In this document: positions 6,719-23,808 of the stretch, one piece after another
How positions within the stretch are numbered: the stretch's first letter is position 1
How the letters are laid out: each line of letters starts with the position of its first letter
Notes under the pieces: model-generated
What the model was told of the DNA's origin: nothing
Database searches by the model: none
The model's input: only the letters and a program-made list of their open reading frames with translations
Made by a program: the position numbers and the translations under genes
Virus record (IMG/VR): IMGVR_UViG_3300005548_000033
Location: 1 to 24,106 of that record
Length of the DNA stretch: 24,106 bases
Source: a virus
Reading direction: 5' to 3' (one strand)

Positions 6719-6976
6719 TCAAAGAACTGGTTTAGCGCCGCCCGAAGCATGATGTAGGGTAGAAATGTGGTGAGTCTCAGAACCATCTTCGTGCTGGACG
6801 GTCACACGAGTTCCGATATGAGAAGTGACAGTTCCAGTCATGCCGTGGTGCTTCGAAGGACGATAGTTCACCTGAACCTTCGTGCCTGCAGCAAGGTGCT
6901 TATCTGGGTTGACCTTCTCGCTGTTGATGCGAGAGTCTTCGTTCAGTTCTGTTGTCCAATCAGTGAAAGATTTCAT
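6719..6976 (-). CDS. Small SH3/KOW-like protein with capsid-targeting-like N-terminus
   Basis: This 85-residue protein starts at the ATG at 6976 (ATGA overlap with the gene before it). The N-terminus MKSFTDWTTELNE resembles the T4 capsid-targeting sequence MKTYQEFIAE. Residues about 28-75 have the spacing of a small SH3/KOW barrel: AGTKVQVNYR, then GMTGTVTSHIGTRVTVQ and a DGSETHH turn. Such barrels often bind nucleic acid or polymerase. If the leader is real, the protein may be packaged in the head and trimmed after the Glu; this is inference from similarity. Confidence 0.6.
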   Translation of the reverse strand: MKSFTDWTTELNEDSRINSEKVNPDKHLAAGTKVQVNYRPSKHHGMTGTVTSHIGTRVTVQHEDGSETHHISTLHHASGGAKPVL

Positions 6977-7065
6977 TGGTGTTGTACTCCGAAAGCGAGA
7001 TAGACGAAATGTGCCACTGCGATGAGGGCAACGAAGATGACGAGTGCGATGAGAAACTGTTTCAT
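6973..7065 (-). CDS. Single-TM microprotein, 30 aa
   Basis: The 30-codon frame has ATGA overlaps at both ends (start in the stop of the 239-aa gene, stop in the start of the KOW-like gene). Nearly the whole chain is one hydrophobic helix (FLIALVIFVALIAVAHFVYL) after a Lys/Gln start, so a single-pass inner-membrane peptide is expected. The double coupling and clean hydrophobic profile make it credible despite its length. Function unknown. Confidence 0.6.
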   Translation of the reverse strand: MKQFLIALVIFVALIAVAHFVYLAFGVQHQ

Positions 7066-7781
7066 TTCTCAAATCTCTTGGCGAAGGCTTCAACCTTCTC
7101 GTGTGGCGTCTGCTTGGCGTTTGCTGCTCGAACCGAGACGGCGAGCGTCTTGCCAGCATTGTGATAGACGTTGAAGTTGTGGCCTTCGTGCTCAATGGTC
7201 TTTGTTGACCCGTACGATTCGCCGTAGCCAGCCTTCGGAATCTTGTGTTCCTTCATCTTCTCTTCAGAAGTCTCAACGTGAATCGGTCGACCTTCATTTG
7301 ATCCGACGTAGCCTTCCTCAATACGAGATCTGATGATATCGATCGCGGATTGCTCTTCATGGAGCTTCTCAACCGACACAGCCATGTAGAATTTGACAGT
7401 GCCCTTGACATCAACGTCGTAGCCCATCACCTTGCCATTCTTCTCCTTGACACCGACGACCTTTCCTGCATGGCCGGCAGCCAAAACAGCAGCGCCCGGT
7501 CCATACGTTTCTGGCTTGTCGGCCATCCGAAGTTTCAAGAAATCTGTAGATGACATCTCCTCGATCTTTTCCTCAGGCTCCTGAATCAGATCTTGAAGCT
7601 GAGTGACCAACTGACGAACTTTCGTCATGTTCTTGATACGTGTACCTTTTGTCGTCAACTCCATCTGAATCTGGTTCAGATCGTTGAGAATTTCAGCAAA
7701 CATCTGAGTCAAACCCTGGTTGTTTGCTTTCAGGTAACCCTGTACCTTCGAAATTGCTGTACTTAGTGCCTGGGATGCCAT
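7062..7781 (-). CDS. Helical protein with KOW/SH3-like segment, 239 aa
   Basis: It starts at the ATG at 7781 with a weak AAGAAG upstream. Residues 1-85 are helical, probably coiled coil (LTQMFAEILNDLNQIQMEL). Residues about 98-140 look like a small SH3/KOW barrel (GPGAAVLAAGHAGKVVG, then NGKVMGYDVDV), recalling the small protein two genes downstream. The C-terminal 90 residues are charged and mixed. A TTAAATA element and a dyad lie just upstream. No catalytic motif is visible; a structural or nucleic-acid-binding role is possible. Confidence 0.7.
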   Translation of the reverse strand: MASQALSTAISKVQGYLKANNQGLTQMFAEILNDLNQIQMELTTKGTRIKNMTKVRQLVTQLQDLIQEPEEKIEEMSSTDFLKLRMADKPETYGPGAAVLAAGHAGKVVGVKEKNGKVMGYDVDVKGTVKFYMAVSVEKLHEEQSAIDIIRSRIEEGYVGSNEGRPIHVETSEEKMKEHKIPKAGYGESYGSTKTIEHEGHNFNVYHNAGKTLAVSVRAANAKQTPHEKVEAFAKRFEK

Positions 7782-8290
7782 CGTATTCTTCTTGGTGGGA
7801 TACTCACGTATTTAAGTATCCTACTGAGTATCAGTTGGGGCTGTTGAGCCACACCTTCGGCTGTTGCCAACCGAAGGTGCAGCAGTCATCAGTACGGAGC
7901 CGATAACCACACAGTGAGTCAAGCTGCTGTATAGTGCGGACGCGAGAACCGGACGGCGCCCTTCGCTTGCTTCGGAATATTCTGCCACACCGAGGAGAGA
8001 ACATCACATCTCAAATCGGTGACACTGGTCGCAGGTGAGCGTTGCCAGTCATGCCTTTGGATTGTGACTCAGAAGTACCTACAGCCTCTTGCTCACGGCG
8101 AGACACGTGGTCCGACGATTAGTGCTGGCCCATTGTGGCTGAGTCACGATGAAGAAAGGCAGCACGGCACTATGGCTCTGGGCTCAATCTCATCCTATAC
8201 CCTATCAGTCTAGTATGAAATCGTTAGGAAACTGGCCCAACTTTGATACAGTAAGAAGGCACACTTGCGATGCAGAGGCGTGCCCCGTGT
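7782..8290. other. Gene-free, inverted-repeat-rich stretch (candidate structured RNA or control region)
   Basis: About 500 nt hold no convincing gene, in a genome where genes otherwise overlap. Perfect inverted repeats are visible. GATACTCA/TGAGTATC lies at 7799-7806/7825-7832. CACCTTCGG/CCGAAGGTG lies at 7852-7860/7871-7879 (9 bp, 10-nt loop). CACCGA/TCGGTG lies at 7988-7993/8016-8021, with an inner GAGA/TCTC. ACTGG/CCAGT lies near 8024-8049. GTGACTCAG/CTGAGTCAC lies at 8064-8072/8139-8147. No tRNA TPsiC motif was found. A plus-strand GTG frame at 8019-8213 lacks a ribosome site and is not called. Confidence 0.5.
7799..7832 (-). promoter_or_regulatory. Late-promoter-like TTAAATA inside a dyad
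   Basis: The minus strand reads ACTTAAATACG, matching 6 of 8 positions of the T4 late -10 TATAAATA. It is flanked by an 8-bp perfect inverted repeat (GATACTCA/TGAGTATC) and ends 28 nt before the ATG at 7781. The dyad could be an operator or a hairpin in the DNA around the promoter. Similar TAAATA elements precede the AAA+ and PARP genes. Confidence 0.35.
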
Positions 8291-8647
8291 TTAATTTGGG
8301 AGGCTGAAGTCGATCCAATTCTTCTCGTTGCAGCCCCATCTGATTTGGCAGGAATACTTTTGCTCGATCTTCTTCACGATTTCTGAGATCTTGGAGGCAG
8401 AGTCGTTCGTCAGGATCTGCCAATCGTAATCCTCGCCGTCATCATCGTCAGGCATTTCATGACGAGGCGGATTCTCCCATCTGCCGAGATCACGTACTTC
8501 AAGAGTACCATGAGGAACTTCGTTGGTACGCCACTCGGTCATTCGGGTGTTGAGAGATGTTGACTTTAGAGCCAACATCAAGTCGTGAAGGATGTCAGTT
8601 GAACGTGCGTGGACGCCTTCGTTCATGAATTCTGTGAAGCCTTTCAT
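8291..8647 (-). CDS. Hypothetical protein with capsid-targeting-like N-terminus, 118 aa
   Basis: The ATG at 8647 overlaps the stop of the TM microprotein as ATGA. The N-terminus MKGFTEFMNE aligns position by position with T4 MKTYQEFIAE (Met-Lys-x-aromatic-x-Glu-Phe-x-x-Glu), so it may be a head-packaged protein cleaved after Glu10. The rest has an acidic loop (PDDDDGEDYDW) and a C-terminal alpha/beta segment (SKISEIVKKIEQKYSCQIRW). No enzyme motif is recognised. A weak hairpin lies after the stop at 8262-8287. Confidence 0.65.
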   Translation of the reverse strand: MKGFTEFMNEGVHARSTDILHDLMLALKSTSLNTRMTEWRTNEVPHGTLEVRDLGRWENPPRHEMPDDDDGEDYDWQILTNDSASKISEIVKKIEQKYSCQIRWGCNEKNWIDFSLPN

Positions 8648-8772
8648 CTACAATCCTTTTCGTGGCCTTGGTTCCAGAACCACATGCAAGCGAAGATCAT
8701 ACAGGCGCCGACCACTACAACAACGATCAGAGTCTGCAGGAGTTGGTTGAACCATTGAGTATCGGCGTCCAT
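8644..8772 (-). CDS. Single-TM protein, 42 aa
   Basis: It starts at the ATG at 8772 behind a good AAGGGG site and ends in an ATGA overlap with the next gene. Residues 13-34 form one TM helix (TLIVVVVVGACMIFACMWFW), with a short polar N-terminus (MDADTQWFNQ) and a basic tail. It is a good coding candidate because of its ribosome site, coupling and hydrophobic profile. Function unknown; a role in membrane anchoring or superinfection control is possible. Confidence 0.7.
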   Translation of the reverse strand: MDADTQWFNQLLQTLIVVVVVGACMIFACMWFWNQGHEKDCR

Positions 8773-8788
8773 TGAATCCCCTTGTGAA

Positions 8789-8847
8789 AGCTCTCGGTCC
8801 TGGGCCTATCCCCACTCTACCAGCTGGTGGGTTGATGACCGAGAGCT
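8789..8847. repeat. Long inverted repeat, 11-bp stem, upstream of the 42-aa TM gene
   Basis: AGCTCTCGGTC (8789-8799) and GACCGAGAGCT (8837-8847) are perfect complements separated by 37 nt, which themselves contain the palindrome ACCAGCTGGT. On the minus strand the hairpin ends 16 nt before the ATG at 8772, just 5' of the ribosome site. It has no U-tract on either side, so a leader structure, RNA-processing site or protein-binding site is more likely than a terminator. Confidence 0.55.
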
Positions 8848-8899
8848 GTGTTTCGCCGTCCTTGCTTCATCCTTGACCAGCTCACGAATCCTTCGTGAA

Positions 8900-9112
8900 T
8901 TACTTCCCCATGTTCTTCTTTCGAGCTTCTTCTGCGGCTTTCTCGAGGCCTGGATTGTGTGGCTTTCCGGCTGCGGCAGCCTCAGCGGCCTTCTTCTTGG
9001 CATGCAGAGCATCCAGTGCCTTGTTGAAGTATGCACCTTCGCCCGAGACAGTCTTTTCGTCAATGACAATCTTACCTTCAACGAGCTGGTCTACAAATGT
9101 GTTGAAATCCAT
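8900..9112 (-). CDS. Small Ala/Lys-rich protein with capsid-targeting-like N-terminus, 70 aa
   Basis: The ATG at 9112 has GAGGAA 7 nt upstream. The N-terminus MDFNTFVDQLVE resembles the T4 capsid-targeting consensus. The remainder is very rich in Ala and Lys (ALHAKKKAAEAAAAGK, then AEEARKKNMGK), basic and low in complexity, as in T4 internal head proteins that condense DNA or are injected. That comparison is inference. A 7-bp hairpin (TCACGAA/TTCGTGA, 8882-8898) follows immediately after the stop codon. Confidence 0.65.
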   Translation of the reverse strand: MDFNTFVDQLVEGKIVIDEKTVSGEGAYFNKALDALHAKKKAAEAAAAGKPHNPGLEKAAEEARKKNMGK

Positions 9113-9124
9113 GATGTGTTCCTC

Positions 9125-10618
9125 TTAGCTATAACGTTTGACGAGACGCTGCCATTCGGTTCCGCCAACACCAGCGGCAGCAGCACCGGCACGGATATTC
9201 AGACCACGGATCAGCTTTCGGATGTTCAGGTCGTTCTTGTTTTGGCCGATCAGGTCAACAACTTCGGTACGCTCGGCGTCCGACAGAATCAAACCATCAT
9301 CCAATGGGATGCCGTTGCAGATCTTGCGCATGAAGTTGAGAACTTCTTCGTCCGTTGGATCGATTGAGATCATCAGCGCACGTGTACGCAGAGCCTTGTC
9401 CGGGTCCAGCTTGTCTATCGCCAGGTTGGAGATGAAGACAATCTGTCCCTTGAACTCGTAGTATGTTGGGAGCATTCCCTGCTCGATGTCAGCGTCGGTG
9501 ATGACGTCTGGGTCTAGCAGATTCTTCGAAGCCTTCATCCAAGACAGCTTACGCACCTTCTTGGTGTCGGTAGCGGCCTTGATCAGGTTACGAGAGTCCT
9601 GATCCGAAAGAGCGCCGTCGGCGTCATCGAATAGGACCAGATCGTTTCGGTGCTTGAACAGCTCTCGATAGATACCGCCGGCAGATGCCGAACCAGTGAT
9701 CTTGAAGTAGCCGTCGCCGTCTCGCAGACCAGCATCCGAAAGGACCTTCTCAACAGTGTGGGTCTTACCGACACCACCTCGTCCAGCAATGAATAGGGCA
9801 TTCGAAGCGCCCTTGATCGTCAGCCTGATCAGACCCTCAAGGTCCTTCAGCTGGTCCTCATATGCGAGATGTTCCAAACCTTCTTTATCCATGGCGTCGA
9901 ACTTCGTGTCGCCTGTATATTTTTCACCAGTGCCGCCTGGAACGACCTTGACCTTGACAGCGCCAACGGCGTGCAGGATTGTGTCACGCATTGCCTTGAT
10001 CTTCTCGACGTCTGAATGCAGACCCTTGAAGATTGTATCACGCCCATCCTTCGCGAAGAGGTTAGCGTAGTGTTCGCGGATATACTGGATGATTTTATAT
10101 GTTGCAGTCTTGTTTGCCAAGGCCGTTAGAGGAACTTTTTCCCCTGCCTTGAGCGAGTTGATGACAATCTCAAACGGATCATCAGAAATGTTTTCTTCGA
10201 GGCGCATTGGCTCGAATGGATCTGGGATCGCGATGATGTCTTCAGGCTTGATATTTGGCGCCGTCAGGATCTGTACGATCGTCGGGAGGATTGTGACAAG
10301 TGACAGCTCACGATCGAACTCTAGGTGCCAGGTCGGATCCTTGCCGCCACCGCCTTCCCAAACGTCAACAGAGTCGAGCTCTGCTGAGCTGAAATTCGTG
10401 TGTACCCAATTGAATCGGATGGAATCATCGTTTCCGTAAAATAGACGAATACCGAAGCCACGGTTCTTGCTGTTCGAGAACTCTTCATAGCCAGGCATCC
10501 TGAAGATCAGGTGCGGAGTGTGCTTAACCAGGTAGGTCGTGATCAGCTCCGCCGCACGATCGATGTTGCCTGTCGAGATGGCTTCATTCAGCCATTCTGT
10601 GAATTCGAGAAGGATCAT
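9125..10618 (-). CDS. AAA+ family ATPase, 497 aa
   Basis: The protein has a Walker A motif GRGGVGKT (residues 279-286), a Walker B motif LVLFDDAD (327-334), a sensor-1-like GQIVFISN near residue 390, and an Arg-rich LRTRALMISI beyond it. Residues 1-250 are an alpha/beta region of unknown type beginning MILLEFTEWLNE, which resembles a capsid-targeting sequence. It is not the replicative helicase or the clamp loader by motif spacing. The start at 10618 has a poor ribosome site, but a CTAAATAA late-promoter-like element lies about 35 nt upstream. Substrate unknown; motor or remodelling activity is expected. Confidence 0.8.
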   Translation of the reverse strand: MILLEFTEWLNEAISTGNIDRAAELITTYLVKHTPHLIFRMPGYEEFSNSKNRGFGIRLFYGNDDSIRFNWVHTNFSSAELDSVDVWEGGGGKDPTWHLEFDRELSLVTILPTIVQILTAPNIKPEDIIAIPDPFEPMRLEENISDDPFEIVINSLKAGEKVPLTALANKTATYKIIQYIREHYANLFAKDGRDTIFKGLHSDVEKIKAMRDTILHAVGAVKVKVVPGGTGEKYTGDTKFDAMDKEGLEHLAYEDQLKDLEGLIRLTIKGASNALFIAGRGGVGKTHTVEKVLSDAGLRDGDGYFKITGSASAGGIYRELFKHRNDLVLFDDADGALSDQDSRNLIKAATDTKKVRKLSWMKASKNLLDPDVITDADIEQGMLPTYYEFKGQIVFISNLAIDKLDPDKALRTRALMISIDPTDEEVLNFMRKICNGIPLDDGLILSDAERTEVVDLIGQNKNDLNIRKLIRGLNIRAGAAAAGVGGTEWQRLVKRYS

Positions 10619-10650: not shown

Positions 10651-10658
10651 TTATTTAG
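10651..10658 (-). promoter_or_regulatory. Late-promoter-like CTAAATAA upstream of the AAA+ gene
   Basis: Minus strand CACTAAATAAATGG lies between a terminator and the ATG at 10618. It matches the TAAATA core of the T4 late -10. The position, just after a terminator and about 33 nt before a start codon, is what a promoter needs. No -35 is required for T4-type late promoters. Confidence 0.35.
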
Positions 10659-12312: not shown

Positions 12313-12636
12313 TCAGGCCGGATTTCTTAACAGTATCAAATACCGACCAAATTCAATCAGGTCATTCATGAATTCTGATGTGAAACGCACGACGTAAATC
12401 TCGCCACCATCAGAGTACGGAGTATCGATGTAGAGGACGGGCCCTTGGCCAGAACCTTCCATAGAGACATGAGGTCCGAACTGGTATTGGTCAAACTCAG
12501 TGAAGGATACGACCTCATTTTCAGAGATCGGAATCGTGCCGTCCATGAATGTGTATGAAACAAGCTGTGTCGGCGAAACCTGGCCAGTTTCTTCCTTCAG
12601 GTACTGGCCAAATGGCTTGATGATGAGTGGGTTCAT
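12313..12636 (-). CDS. Hypothetical protein, 107 aa
   Basis: The ATG at 12636 overlaps the PARP gene stop as ATGA, so the two are translated together. The N-terminus (IKPFGQYLKE) loosely resembles the capsid-targeting pattern but is displaced by several residues. The body is beta-rich and acidic (NEVVSFTEFDQYQFGP), then a EIYVVRFTSEF strand and a C-terminal helix. It might be an inhibitor or partner of the PARP-domain protein simply because of its coupling; nothing in its sequence shows this. Confidence 0.65.
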   Translation of the reverse strand: MNPLIIKPFGQYLKEETGQVSPTQLVSYTFMDGTIPISENEVVSFTEFDQYQFGPHVSMEGSGQGPVLYIDTPYSDGGEIYVVRFTSEFMNDLIEFGRYLILLRNPA

Positions 12637-15690: not shown

Positions 15691-15726
15691 AATAAAAGGG
15701 CACCATAGACCGCGTGCCCTTTTATT
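15691..15726. terminator. Strong bidirectional terminator between gp32 and the PARP gene
   Basis: AATAAAAGGGCAC (15691-15703) and GTGCCCTTTTATT (15714-15726) are 13-bp perfect complements around a 10-nt loop. On the minus strand the second arm ends in TTTTATTTT, a good U-tract, 20 nt after the gp32 stop (15746). An AATAAATA late-promoter-like element (15723-15730) overlaps its outer arm. Confidence 0.8.
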
Positions 15727-15730
15727 TATT
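15723..15730 (-). promoter_or_regulatory. Late-promoter-like AATAAATA upstream of the PARP gene
   Basis: Minus strand CTGAATAAATAAAAGG matches 7 of 8 positions of TATAAATA. A transcript beginning here would start inside the terminator hairpin and so would not form its full stem, letting polymerase continue into the PARP gene. Composition-driven chance matches are possible. Confidence 0.35.
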
Positions 15731-17515: not shown

Positions 17516-17986
17516 CTATAGAGATGCTACCGAGTAGAACTTGTGGTGGCCGATCTGCTTGTCGAAAGCCAGGTTGCGGTCCTTGAATCCTTTCACACAG
17601 AAGTGGGTGGAAGTTTTGACACGAGGATCTGCGAAGGAGACTCCTGAGTTCCTTGAAAGGGCGAAGAGCCAAGCTCGGAGCTCAATCTCTTCGTACTCGG
17701 GAGACTTATGCGGTACGCGCCTGGTTCCAGCGTCCTTATCAGTCCAGACAAATTGTCCGGGCTGGTAGACCACACCGCAGATTGAGTCCCTGTAGTTTCC
17801 TGCTTGGACTCTGTTGAAGACGACTTGTGCGACCGCTGCTTGGCCTTCGTATCCTTCACCTCTTGCTTCATGATATAGGTTTTCCGCCAGGCATTGGATC
17901 TGTTTTGGATCCAGTTCCAAATGTTGTGTTGGTGTTGCCGTTGGTGCGATTGTATTCAGCAATACGGCGAATAGAAGTTTGAACAT
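17516..17986 (-). CDS. SleB/CwlJ-type cell-wall hydrolase (probable endolysin), 156 aa
   Basis: Residues about 28-150 match the Hydrolase_2 (SleB/CwlJ) pattern: CLAENLYHEARGEGYEGQAA, with the family's catalytic-type Glu in YHEARGEG, then VVFNRVQAG, and a Tyr/Gln-rich QPGQFVWT segment. Residues 1-20 (FKLLFAVLLNTIAPTA) look like a signal peptide or signal-anchor, so the enzyme can reach the periplasm without a holin. It would cleave peptidoglycan for lysis. The first 119 nt overlap the 3' end of the RecB-like gene in another frame. The lysis spanins are on the other strand about 5 kb away. Confidence 0.85.
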   Translation of the reverse strand: MFKLLFAVLLNTIAPTATPTQHLELDPKQIQCLAENLYHEARGEGYEGQAAVAQVVFNRVQAGNYRDSICGVVYQPGQFVWTDKDAGTRRVPHKSPEYEEIELRAWLFALSRNSGVSFADPRVKTSTHFCVKGFKDRNLAFDKQIGHHKFYSVASL

Positions 17987-18575: not shown

Positions 18576-19027
18576 CAGAGGTAACGTGCGATGAACGTCT
18601 GAACGCTCTTCACGGTCCACGGCAGGCCGGAAGAACTCTCGATATCGTTCTCGAAGAAGGTCTGACGAAGACGCTTCGCCGAGGCGGCACCGAGGCCGTT
18701 ATTATAGACCCACTGGGCCAGTTTGGCATAGTAGCCATCGTCGTGCCGGCTGGCGTCAAAGAGAGGAAGCGGCGAAGTCTTCACGCCATCGAATTCAAGC
18801 TCAGCGTGGTGTGGCTTGGTGTGAGTAGGAGACGGACCTGTCTCTTCAAACTCGTAACCGAAATCCTTGTCAAGTGCAGCTGCCGCCTGATTGGCGATTT
18901 CGATTGCAGCTGAAGGCTTGTACGGTTCAACAGAGAGGGCCTGCTTGAAGGCGGTGTGCCAGACTTCGTAGCGATTGGCCAGGTGCAACTGGAGCTCTGG
19001 GTTGTCAACAAAACTTGCGTACGACAT
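18575..19027 (-). CDS. Hypothetical protein, 150 aa
   Basis: The ATG at 19027 follows GAGGATACATC. It has a helical N-terminal half (NPELQLHLANRYEVWHTAFK), a Pro/His linker (PSPTHTKPHH) and a helical C-terminal half with basic residues (ASAKRLRQTFFENDI, then WTVKSVQTFIARYL) that could bind DNA. Its stop is TGATG-coupled to the RecB-like nuclease, so it may assist that enzyme. No family recognised. Confidence 0.65.
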   Translation of the reverse strand: MSYASFVDNPELQLHLANRYEVWHTAFKQALSVEPYKPSAAIEIANQAAAALDKDFGYEFEETGPSPTHTKPHHAELEFDGVKTSPLPLFDASRHDDGYYAKLAQWVYNNGLGAASAKRLRQTFFENDIESSSGLPWTVKSVQTFIARYL

Positions 19028-19036
19028 GATGTATCC

Positions 19037-19309
19037 TCAGATGTTGGCGAAAACGTCGAGTAGGTATGCTTCCACAATCTTGGGAAGCTTTGCTACTTCA
19101 GAGATTGGTACTTCAGGTGTGGTGATTTTGATGGGGCCGTACCTAGAGTTGACTCGCACGATCATGGCGATCGAGTCGTAGTAATACCCTTCGTGGACCT
19201 CAATCGAATCAGATGAACAGCCGTGAAACTCGAGCATTTGCTCGATGTATTTCTTCAACAGCGTCAATGTGGTACAATTTTCAATGAAATCAAGGCGCTT
19301 GTCATGCAT
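19037..19309 (-). CDS. Hypothetical protein, 90 aa
   Basis: The ATG at 19309 lies 3 nt after the FmdB-type stop. The protein is mixed alpha/beta: helix (TTLTLLKKYIEQMLEFHG), acidic turn, paired strands (SIAMIVRVNSRYGPIKIT) and a C-terminal helix (VAKLPKIVEAYLLDVF). There is no catalytic motif and no recognised family. Confidence 0.65.
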   Translation of the reverse strand: MHDKRLDFIENCTTLTLLKKYIEQMLEFHGCSSDSIEVHEGYYYDSIAMIVRVNSRYGPIKITTPEVPISEVAKLPKIVEAYLLDVFANI

Positions 19310-22468: not shown

Positions 22469-22852
22469 ATGGCCAAGAACGACGATCATCTGTGGTTCCA
22501 CCCTCAGACGGGTGAGCCAATTCCGCGCGACGATAAGCCTGCATCCAAGGCCACGGCTGCGCCACAGCTCACATTCTCGAAGCTCTCGGGTCCTGCTCCG
22601 CTTGATCTGACTGTCAAGTTCCCAGGTGGAGCTGACCTCAGTTCCGCTGTCATCCACTGGGGTGACGGTTCGAAGGACTCCAAGATTGACCTCCACACGA
22701 CTGGCGAAGCGACGCACGCGTATCACAACGTTGGCGAATGCACACTCAAGGTTGCGGTGACTCTCGGCGACGGAAACATCCACACCGTCGAGAAGCTCGT
22801 GAAGATCAAGCCTGCAGCTCCCGTCAAGAAGGCTGACGAAGCTACCGCGTAA
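22469..22852 (+). CDS. PKD-domain protein, probable virion protein, 127 aa
   Basis: The ATG at 22469 gives MAKNDDHLWFHPQTG; a GGA is 8 nt upstream. Residues about 33-115 match the PKD fold: Pro-rich start, DLTVKFPGG, the diagnostic HWGDGSKD (Trp64-Gly65-Asp66-Gly67), a HAYHNVGE turn and LKVAVTLGDG. PKD and Ig-like domains are common decorations of phage capsids and tails. The N-terminal 30 residues are charged and Lys-rich with a Pro/Ala linker. No signal peptide or TM segment. A virion surface role is inferred from fold and from its late-type neighbours. Confidence 0.75.
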   Translation: MAKNDDHLWFHPQTGEPIPRDDKPASKATAAPQLTFSKLSGPAPLDLTVKFPGGADLSSAVIHWGDGSKDSKIDLHTTGEATHAYHNVGECTLKVAVTLGDGNIHTVEKLVKIKPAAPVKKADEATA

Positions 22853-23280: not shown

Positions 23281-23808
23281 ATGTTCACGAAACTACTCGC
23301 ATACGTTCTCGGCGCCATCTTTCTCATCGGATTGGGAGCCGTGCCAGCCTGGTACTACACACAGCAGTACGAGGTCAACAAGTACACCGCCCAGATTGAG
23401 AAGGCAAACCAAGAGGCCGACCAGAAGCTCATCGACCTCACAGTAGCGAAGGGCAAGGTTGAAATTGAGCTTTACCAAGCGAAGAACGACATTCAGAACA
23501 AGTATGAAAAGGCCATTCGAGATGATCAGGAAACTATTGCTAAGCTCCATGCTACTAATACAAGGCTGCAGTTCACTATCGCCAACAAAGATCGTGAACA
23601 CGCCAGTGCCGGAAATCCCGGCTCCACCAGCGGCAGTGACAACACCGGCTCCACCACCGTCGTACTTCCTCAACCAATTTCTGACGCTATTCTCAGCCTC
23701 GCCCTTAGAGCCGATTCCGTATCTGAACAGCTCCGAGCCTGCCAATCCTGGGTTGCCACCACTCAAGCAGCCCTAGACAAGTGGAAGAAAGACAACAAAA
23801 TCAAGTAG
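23281..23808 (+). CDS. Inner-membrane spanin (Rz-like), 175 aa
   Basis: It has the i-spanin layout: an N-terminal TM anchor (residues about 5-24, LAYVLGAIFLIGLGAVPAWY), then about 75 residues of charged periplasmic helix (TAQIEKANQEADQKLIDL), a Gly/Ser/Thr linker (GNPGSTSGSDNTGSTT), and a helical C-terminus with LRACQSWVATTQAALDKW. The single TM plus long coiled coil and the lipoprotein gene embedded in it identify the pair. It joins the inner and outer membranes in the last step of lysis. AGGA lies 7 nt before the ATG. Confidence 0.8.
   Translation: MFTKLLAYVLGAIFLIGLGAVPAWYYTQQYEVNKYTAQIEKANQEADQKLIDLTVAKGKVEIELYQAKNDIQNKYEKAIRDDQETIAKLHATNTRLQFTIANKDREHASAGNPGSTSGSDNTGSTTVVLPQPISDAILSLALRADSVSEQLRACQSWVATTQAALDKWKKDNKIK
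23522..23776 (+). CDS. Outer-membrane spanin (Rz1-like lipoprotein) embedded in the i-spanin gene, 84 aa
   Basis: It is read in the +1 frame wholly inside the i-spanin gene. The ATG at 23522 has AAAAGG 9 nt upstream; an alternative in-frame ATG is at 23504. The N-terminus MIRKLLLSSMLLIQGCSS is a lipoprotein signal with Cys16 as the lipidated residue. The mature part is Pro-rich (VPEIPAPPAAVTTPAPPP, later PGLPPLKQP), as in Rz1. It would bind the i-spanin across the periplasm. This nested layout is known from lambda and other coliphages. Confidence 0.8.
   Translation: MIRKLLLSSMLLIQGCSSLSPTKIVNTPVPEIPAPPAAVTTPAPPPSYFLNQFLTLFSASPLEPIPYLNSSEPANPGLPPLKQP

Follow-up and report, generated by a model that had tools for sequence, protein, structure and literature searches.

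The closest described system is the N-terminal tag of the T4 internal proteins IPII and IPIII (MKTYQEFIAE). Mutagenesis of IPIII assigned residues 4 and 7 to targeting and residues 8 and 10 to processing, and the protease gp21 cuts after L/I-x-E (PMC9026906); IPIII lets T4 infect one particular E. coli strain and is active in the cytoplasm in a form lacking the tag (PMC9391042). The ADP-ribosyltransferase Alt of T4 is also packaged in the head, and gp21 cuts it at both ends, including the C-terminal side (PMC9026906). Beyond T4, a gp21 relative of the giant phage SPN3US cleaves the propeptides of head proteins behind a Glu, and a role of these propeptides in targeting has been proposed (PMC5694885); in addition, head-packaged ADP-ribosyltransferases and 2H enzymes have been proposed to enter with the DNA (PMC9503650). 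Here we analysed the virus record IMGVR_UViG_3300005548_000033, whose entire 24,106 bases are called the window below and which, going by its gene content, is a fragment of a T4-like myovirus. Five genes on its minus strand begin with short leaders that we regard as T4-type capsid-targeting sequences, so that their proteins would be packed in the prohead, cut after the Glu and ejected with the DNA; we give this reading a probability of about 0.8.

Four of these leaders had been named by a first-pass annotation made from the DNA letters, and all four were found at the starts it gave (6976, 8647, 9112 and 10618). The fifth, at 12636, which had been ranked as a weaker match, turned out to be a strict one, and the offset leaders are those at 6976 and 9112 (Table 1). 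Close to the N-terminus, all five have a pair of aromatic residues at a distance of three, equivalent to targeting residues 4 and 7 of IPIII, and then the processing motif, which is LNE, LVE, LNE and LKE in four leaders and MNE in that of 8647. As in IPII and IPIII, the element is N-terminal, an aromatic pair at spacing 3 is followed by hydrophobic-x-Glu, the proteins behind it are otherwise unrelated and late-promoter-like sites lie near. The window leaders differ from the T4 tag in their varying length, in [LIVM]xE coming one turn later in two of them, and in their predicted cargo, among which are a large AAA+ ATPase and a piece of an ADP-ribosyltransferase. Following the Glu, in order of position, come D, G, G, A and E.

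To count the leaders we used a strict motif, [FYW]xx[FYW][LIVMF]xE, which keeps the T4 spacing, and a relaxed one, in which [LIVM]xE may come up to four residues later. Among the 46 curated window genes (47 were listed and one mis-framed small open reading frame (ORF) was removed), three (8647, 10618 and 12636) have the strict motif where 0.06 are expected, and the P of 5e-5 is the floor of the 20,000 shuffles. The relaxed motif is found in 5 of 46 genes (0.24 expected), also at the floor; because it was defined after the leaders had been seen, this P is optimistic, and the strict form was set by the T4 spacing. An independent ORF caller gave the strict motif at 3 of 51 starts, with 0.07 expected from internal positions (P 6e-5). 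Chance resemblance was rejected by the shuffling and by these internal positions of the same proteins.

Table 1. Features of the leader loci in the window; the slash in a leader marks the predicted cut, and aa is amino acids, nt nucleotides
Feature	Positions	Strand	Leader	Evidence or remark
TAAATA late-promoter-like site	15723..15728	minus		51 nt before the ADP-ribosyltransferase gene
PARP-type ADP-ribosyltransferase, 1014 aa	12633..15677	minus		phrog_18612 E 5e-65; stop in ATGA overlap with 107-aa gene
Leader protein, 107 aa	12313..12636	minus	MNPLIIKPFGQYLKE/E (KPFGQYLKE/E at its end), start 12636, strict T4 spacing	phrog_18612 profile positions 1121-1208; alignment; folded-domain model
TAAATA late-promoter-like site	10652..10657	minus		39 nt before the AAA+ leader gene
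AAA+ ATPase, T4 NrdC.10 relative, 497 aa	9125..10618	minus	MILLEFTEWLNE/A, start 10618, strict T4 spacing	phrog_1250 4e-32; tblastn to T4 nrdC.10 and LR756502
Leader protein, 70 aa	8900..9112	minus	MDFNTFVDQLVE/G, start 9112, offset form	no convincing family match in profile scans
Small single-span membrane peptide	8644..8772	minus		by eye; stop overlaps 8647 gene start (ATGA)
Leader protein, 118 aa	8291..8647	minus	MKGFTEFMNE/G, start 8647, strict T4 spacing	phrog_38558 1.5e-17 over residues 46-117
TAAATA late-promoter-like site	7809..7814	minus		33 nt before the 7062-7781 gene
Protein without leader, 239 aa	7062..7781	minus		first gene of the unit whose last gene is the 6976 gene
Membrane peptide, 30 aa	6973..7065	minus		by eye; stop overlaps 6976 gene start (ATGA)
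Leader protein, 85 aa	6719..6976	minus	MKSFTDWTTELNE/D, start 6976, offset form, LxE later than T4 spacing	no significant family in profile scans

The hexamer TAAATA probably links most of the leader genes to late expression. It stands upstream of the sheath, portal, scaffold and major capsid genes in Xanthomonas phage X1 and of the sheath, tube, portal and capsid genes in Stenotrophomonas phage Mendera, and it precedes the ADP-ribosyltransferase gene in X1, Mendera and the window. The window has nine TAAATA sites, three of them at a distance of 8-80 nt upstream of a gene start, and the predicted late units that such sites head contain 3 of 4 called leader genes against 11 of 51 (P 0.03). In X1, all six leader genes belong to TAAATA-headed units, compared with 59 of 318 genes (P 3e-5), and one of them (48831-49076) is placed between a prohead core gene and a gene with a gp21-type protease match. 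The X1 proteins with leaders are WEM34225.1, WEM34269.1, WEM34273.1, WEM34321.1, WEM34323.1 and WEM34387.1.

The same tag is found in other phages. The strict motif occurs in 26 of 998 genes of the 642-kb phage LR756502 (3.8 expected; P 7e-14), in 6 of 318 genes of X1 (0.72 expected; P 1e-4) and in 3 of 409 genes of KVP40 (P 0.05). T4 itself, taken as a control, has it in 3 of 268 genes (P 0.07), namely IPII, IPIII and gp61.1. Gene 61.1 (18966-19130) is annotated as hypothetical and has the tag-like start MKTFKEFIKED. In LR756502, 33 leaders (alternative starts counted) have in common a sequence like M[IK][IK]K[KR][YFW]x[DEQ]F[IL]NE, and the likeness extends to positions that the motif does not fix; this phage has a T4-type portal and, directly beyond it, a protease match under the family cut-off. 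A DNA pattern for MKxFxEFIxE was found in at least 120 IMG/VR stretches and a permuted control pattern in none. At 78 of the 81 starts extracted from them an in-frame stop lies upstream by fewer than 40 codons, which shows that the pattern picks out gene starts, and TAAATA precedes 43 of these 81 leader genes against 75 of 357 others with free upstream DNA, being the best of 4096 hexamers. Twelve leader-bearing contigs are longer than 60 kb; the gp21 family was found in six and a T4-type portal in seven. A protein-level search for the tag in eight records gave nothing. That the tag is specific to T4 was rejected, given the motif in other genomes and in the IMG/VR stretches.

Two counts bear on the cleavage. 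Six residues after the first aromatic, LR756502 has Glu in 25 of 49 N-terminal motifs and in 61 of 537 internal ones (P 2e-10); judged from these residues, the Glu at +6 is under selection. The residue after the Glu was left free by the DNA pattern, and among the 71 unique starts of the 81 from IMG/VR it is A, S or G 46 times, compared with a background of 19% at the corresponding position in other genes (P 4e-17). The SPN3US propeptides are alike in being cleaved behind a Glu by a relative of gp21 and in the proposed targeting, and differ in that most are far longer than 20 residues and have the motif A-x-E (PMC5694885).

The proteins behind the tag are diverse. Family tallies were made for 61 of the 81 IMG/VR starts (at least 40 aa, with a ribosome-site match), and 10 proteins, most of them within the 61, were inspected singly. 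The tag is modular, for 48 PHROG families were matched among the 61. Pfam gave S-adenosylmethionine (SAM) lyase (5), DUF5661 (4) and DUF6321 (3), with a polyvalent-type ADP-ribosyltransferase, a GNAT protein and a helicase as single cases, and PHROG added a deoxyribonucleotidase. In LR756502 the scans covered 28 (Pfam) and 10 (PHROG) of the 33 leader proteins; PPK2, IMPDH, T4 RNA-ligase-1-like, 2H/Acb1-like, methyltransferase and HNH nuclease domains are over the Pfam cut-offs, and the majority of the 28 have no Pfam match. Counter-defence is a known role of SAM lyases and of Acb1-like 2H enzymes, which fits injection. At another IMG/VR locus (L164, 6037-7306) two adjoining genes each start with the tag, and one encodes a polyvalent-type ADP-ribosyltransferase.

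Among the window leaders, the 12636 gene is the strongest case, because it is split from the gene before it exactly where fused relatives have an internal FxxF[ILM]xE. As a pair, the 1014-aa and 107-aa ORFs align to what is one protein each in Mendera, pf16 and X1 (1202 to 1395 aa), and the 107-aa protein is homologous to the C-terminal domain of the PARP-type ADP-ribosyltransferases of these phages. The junction reads FEEHLME/A in Mendera, FTNFINE/A in pf16 and FEDYMME/K in X1, and in the window KPFGQYLKE/E stands there as a gene start, with an ATGA overlap at 12633-12636. We compared 24 sources, and in eight of them (L251, L254, L255, L256, L259, L262, L264 and L266) no usable frame was found. 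Of the other 16, 10 have the internal motif (judged by eye, from six distinct lineages) and the window has it as a gene start; in Aeh1 and Ah1 the second aromatic is missing, in L253 the Glu is absent, and no motif was found in L261 and L265. Several relatives start with LxE and then N[TS]xY, for example YQRFLAE/NTLY in Aeh1, a pattern that the N-terminus of the window transferase does not share. In the model of the 107-aa protein, about residues 23-107 form a well-folded domain, mostly at high confidence, and the leader before it is uncertain. With this C-terminal domain model, no match was obtained in PDB at E 0.001, and BFVD gave three at the same threshold, all proteins of 1202 to 1373 aa, one of them named as the PARP protein of pf16. 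In our reading, the transferase of the relatives would be a precursor whose domains are separated by a predicted protease site; in the window it would be resolved into two genes.

Like Alt, the ADP-ribosyltransferase of the window and its relatives is large and probably late, and a protease site is predicted ahead of its C-terminal part; this part, however, is a folded domain, with its own gene in the window, and the window transferase lacks a clear N-terminal tag of its own. Its catalytic domain is presumably PARP-like (PF00644; E 1.6e-5 and 24.9 bits, slightly under the cut-off of 26.7) and not of the Alt type. Aligned to PARP-type domains, the transferase keeps the His (FHGTG) and the Tyr (GIYFS) and has Ile at the position that we take for the PARP1 catalytic Glu, which suggests mono-ADP-ribosylation. 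In the Aeromonas phages Aeh1, phiAS5, PX29 and Ah1 (L263, L264, L266 and L267), an ADP-ribosylglycohydrolase gene directly adjoins the homologous ADP-ribosyltransferase gene.

The split could also be a sequencing or assembly frameshift, with no real gene fission behind it. The gene is a single ORF in pf16, Mendera and X1, a one-base error near the junction could merge both frames, and the window is a single metagenome contig. We nevertheless consider a frameshift unlikely, as the ATGA overlap at the junction is clean, the second ORF has a Met directly before the leader, and ATGA overlaps also start two other leader genes of the window, 8647 and 6976, making three of the five in all.

Taken together, the view of the leaders as T4-like capsid-targeting tags, already held by the first-pass annotation, is supported by the IPIII-type targeting and processing residues, the excess over chance, the mostly late-promoter units and the wide occurrence of a modular tag. 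In the mechanism that we propose, the tagged proteins would be made late, and the aromatic pair of each leader would draw them into the core of the prohead. A gp21-type prohead protease would then cut after the Glu of [LIM]xE, and the mature protein would stay inside the head until it leaves with the DNA to serve as an effector early in infection. The cargo would include three small proteins, the AAA+ ATPase related to NrdC.10 and the C-terminal module of the PARP-type ADP-ribosyltransferase; in the relatives, this module would be fused behind an internal copy of the motif and released by the protease, and the window gene would be split at that point. Presence in the virion, cleavage, injection and function in the host are what we infer from the genes.

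Several observations weigh against this reading. The 24-kb window has no gp21-type prohead protease gene, which would have to lie outside it, and head genes are not among its genes. A gp21-type protease was found in X1, Mendera, pf16, T4 and KVP40. The close cultured relatives Mendera and pf16 and the contigs G001 and G004 have the strict leader in 0 of 1024 genes, although gp21 is present in them. Just three of the five window leaders have the T4 spacing. The 8647 gene was not assigned to a late unit and the 9112 gene was missed by the gene-calling script used for that count, and TAAATA is not enriched before the leader genes of LR756502 (5 of 33 against 125 of 965; P 0.43). The window transferase starts with MTTDYTQLNLE, which has no L/I-x-E at the T4 spacing and no clear tag. 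The AAA+ domain is homologous to T4 NrdC.10 (phrog_1250), and the homologues of T4 and KVP40 have neither the leader nor the long N-terminal region of the window protein. IMPDH and PPK2 are a less obvious cargo and could count against injection. With regard to tagged cytoplasmic enzymes, which the first-pass annotation had taken as a sign against packaging, no replication protein of the window is tagged, and the PPK2, IMPDH and RNA ligase of LR756502 are either packaged effectors or else a warning.

These enzymes, and the fact that the leader is a short N-terminal element, would also suit a helix that sorts or docks the protein to some other partner, such as the membrane, the tail or a replication complex, with a fortuitous likeness to the T4 tag. 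Such a helix, which we regard as quite improbable, gives no reason to expect an invariant Glu with A, S or G behind it, the link to late promoters, a copy of the leader within the X1 head operon or the motif between the domains of the ADP-ribosyltransferase. A somewhat better case can be made for a motif that serves targeting or scaffold binding on proteins which are removed or degraded at head maturation, like T4 gp67 and gp68, and are not injected, because the X1 gene at 48831-49076 lies amid core genes and several cargos are small (70-118 aa); it is still an unlikely one, for elsewhere the leader is carried by enzymes and likely effectors (SAM lyase, ADP-ribosyltransferase, GNAT and an Acb1-like 2H protein). 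A mere chance likeness between short N-termini could appeal to the relaxed motif needed for two of five leaders, to the single gene set and to a motif that is partly post hoc, but it is very hard to believe with P at the shuffle floor in the window and a fixed motif definition that is highly significant in other genomes.

Capsid targeting remains our preferred reading, and a wider claim, which we would put at even odds, may be drawn from it. One short N-terminal tag that can be recognised from sequence would identify the proteins injected by T4-type phages far beyond T4 itself, among them large groups of counter-defence and metabolic enzymes (33 candidates in LR756502); placed between domains, it would turn one ADP-ribosyltransferase precursor into two injected effectors, a state fixed by gene fission in the phage of the window. 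The kind of tag is known from T4, and as far as these searches show, its members here, its breadth and the fission at the tag site are new. By title, the literature with "capsid targeting sequence" concerns chiefly T4, P1, P22 and SPN3US, and no survey of the sequence in uncultivated phages was found, in a search that mostly did not cover subscription papers. The polyvalent effectors of PMC9503650 were inferred there from head-protein fusions and gene context, as opposed to the short N-terminal tag used here, and the phrase "targeting sequence" is absent from its text. The protein sets that phages deliver with their DNA are known for very few phages. A tag of this sort would make many unannotated late genes of uncultivated T4-like phages testable as candidate first-minute effectors against host defences, and the split ADP-ribosyltransferase offers a ready-made way to test the cleavage site of the prohead protease.

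For the other leader genes, the first-pass annotation was right to list an AAA+ ATPase (Table 1), while no profile supports its label of SH3-like proteins. No relatives of the AAA+ protein were found in viral_contigs, and its fold, predicted without relatives, had a mean predicted local distance difference test score (pLDDT) of 37.6, so that the model was not used. Searches for relatives of the 118-aa protein in viral_contigs and in phages, and of the 239-aa protein in phages, found none. The two tiny membrane peptides at 6973-7065 and 8644-8772 are each ATGA-coupled to a leader gene.

As to the rest of the window, profile matches identified T4-like genes for a gp32-like single-strand binding protein, a gp59-like helicase loader, an RNase H/exonuclease and a primase, together with late-transcription and DsbA-like regulators. 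The primase, exonuclease, loader, binding protein, ADP-ribosyltransferase, exonuclease and DsbA genes are syntenic with those of Mendera, and the single-strand binding proteins of the two share 54% identity. A long region at about 7830-8290 has no convincing gene, and transfer RNA and Rfam scans, which included it, gave zero matches. A cell-wall hydrolase (17516-17986, minus strand; endolysin PHROGs) sits amid the replication genes. On the plus strand, a small protein at 22469-22852 resembles a PKD/Ig-like domain by eye and is possibly a decoration protein, and a spanin-like pair is found at 23281-23808 and about 23525-23776, in which a lipoprotein-type ORF (LIQGC lipobox) lies in another frame inside a membrane-protein gene.

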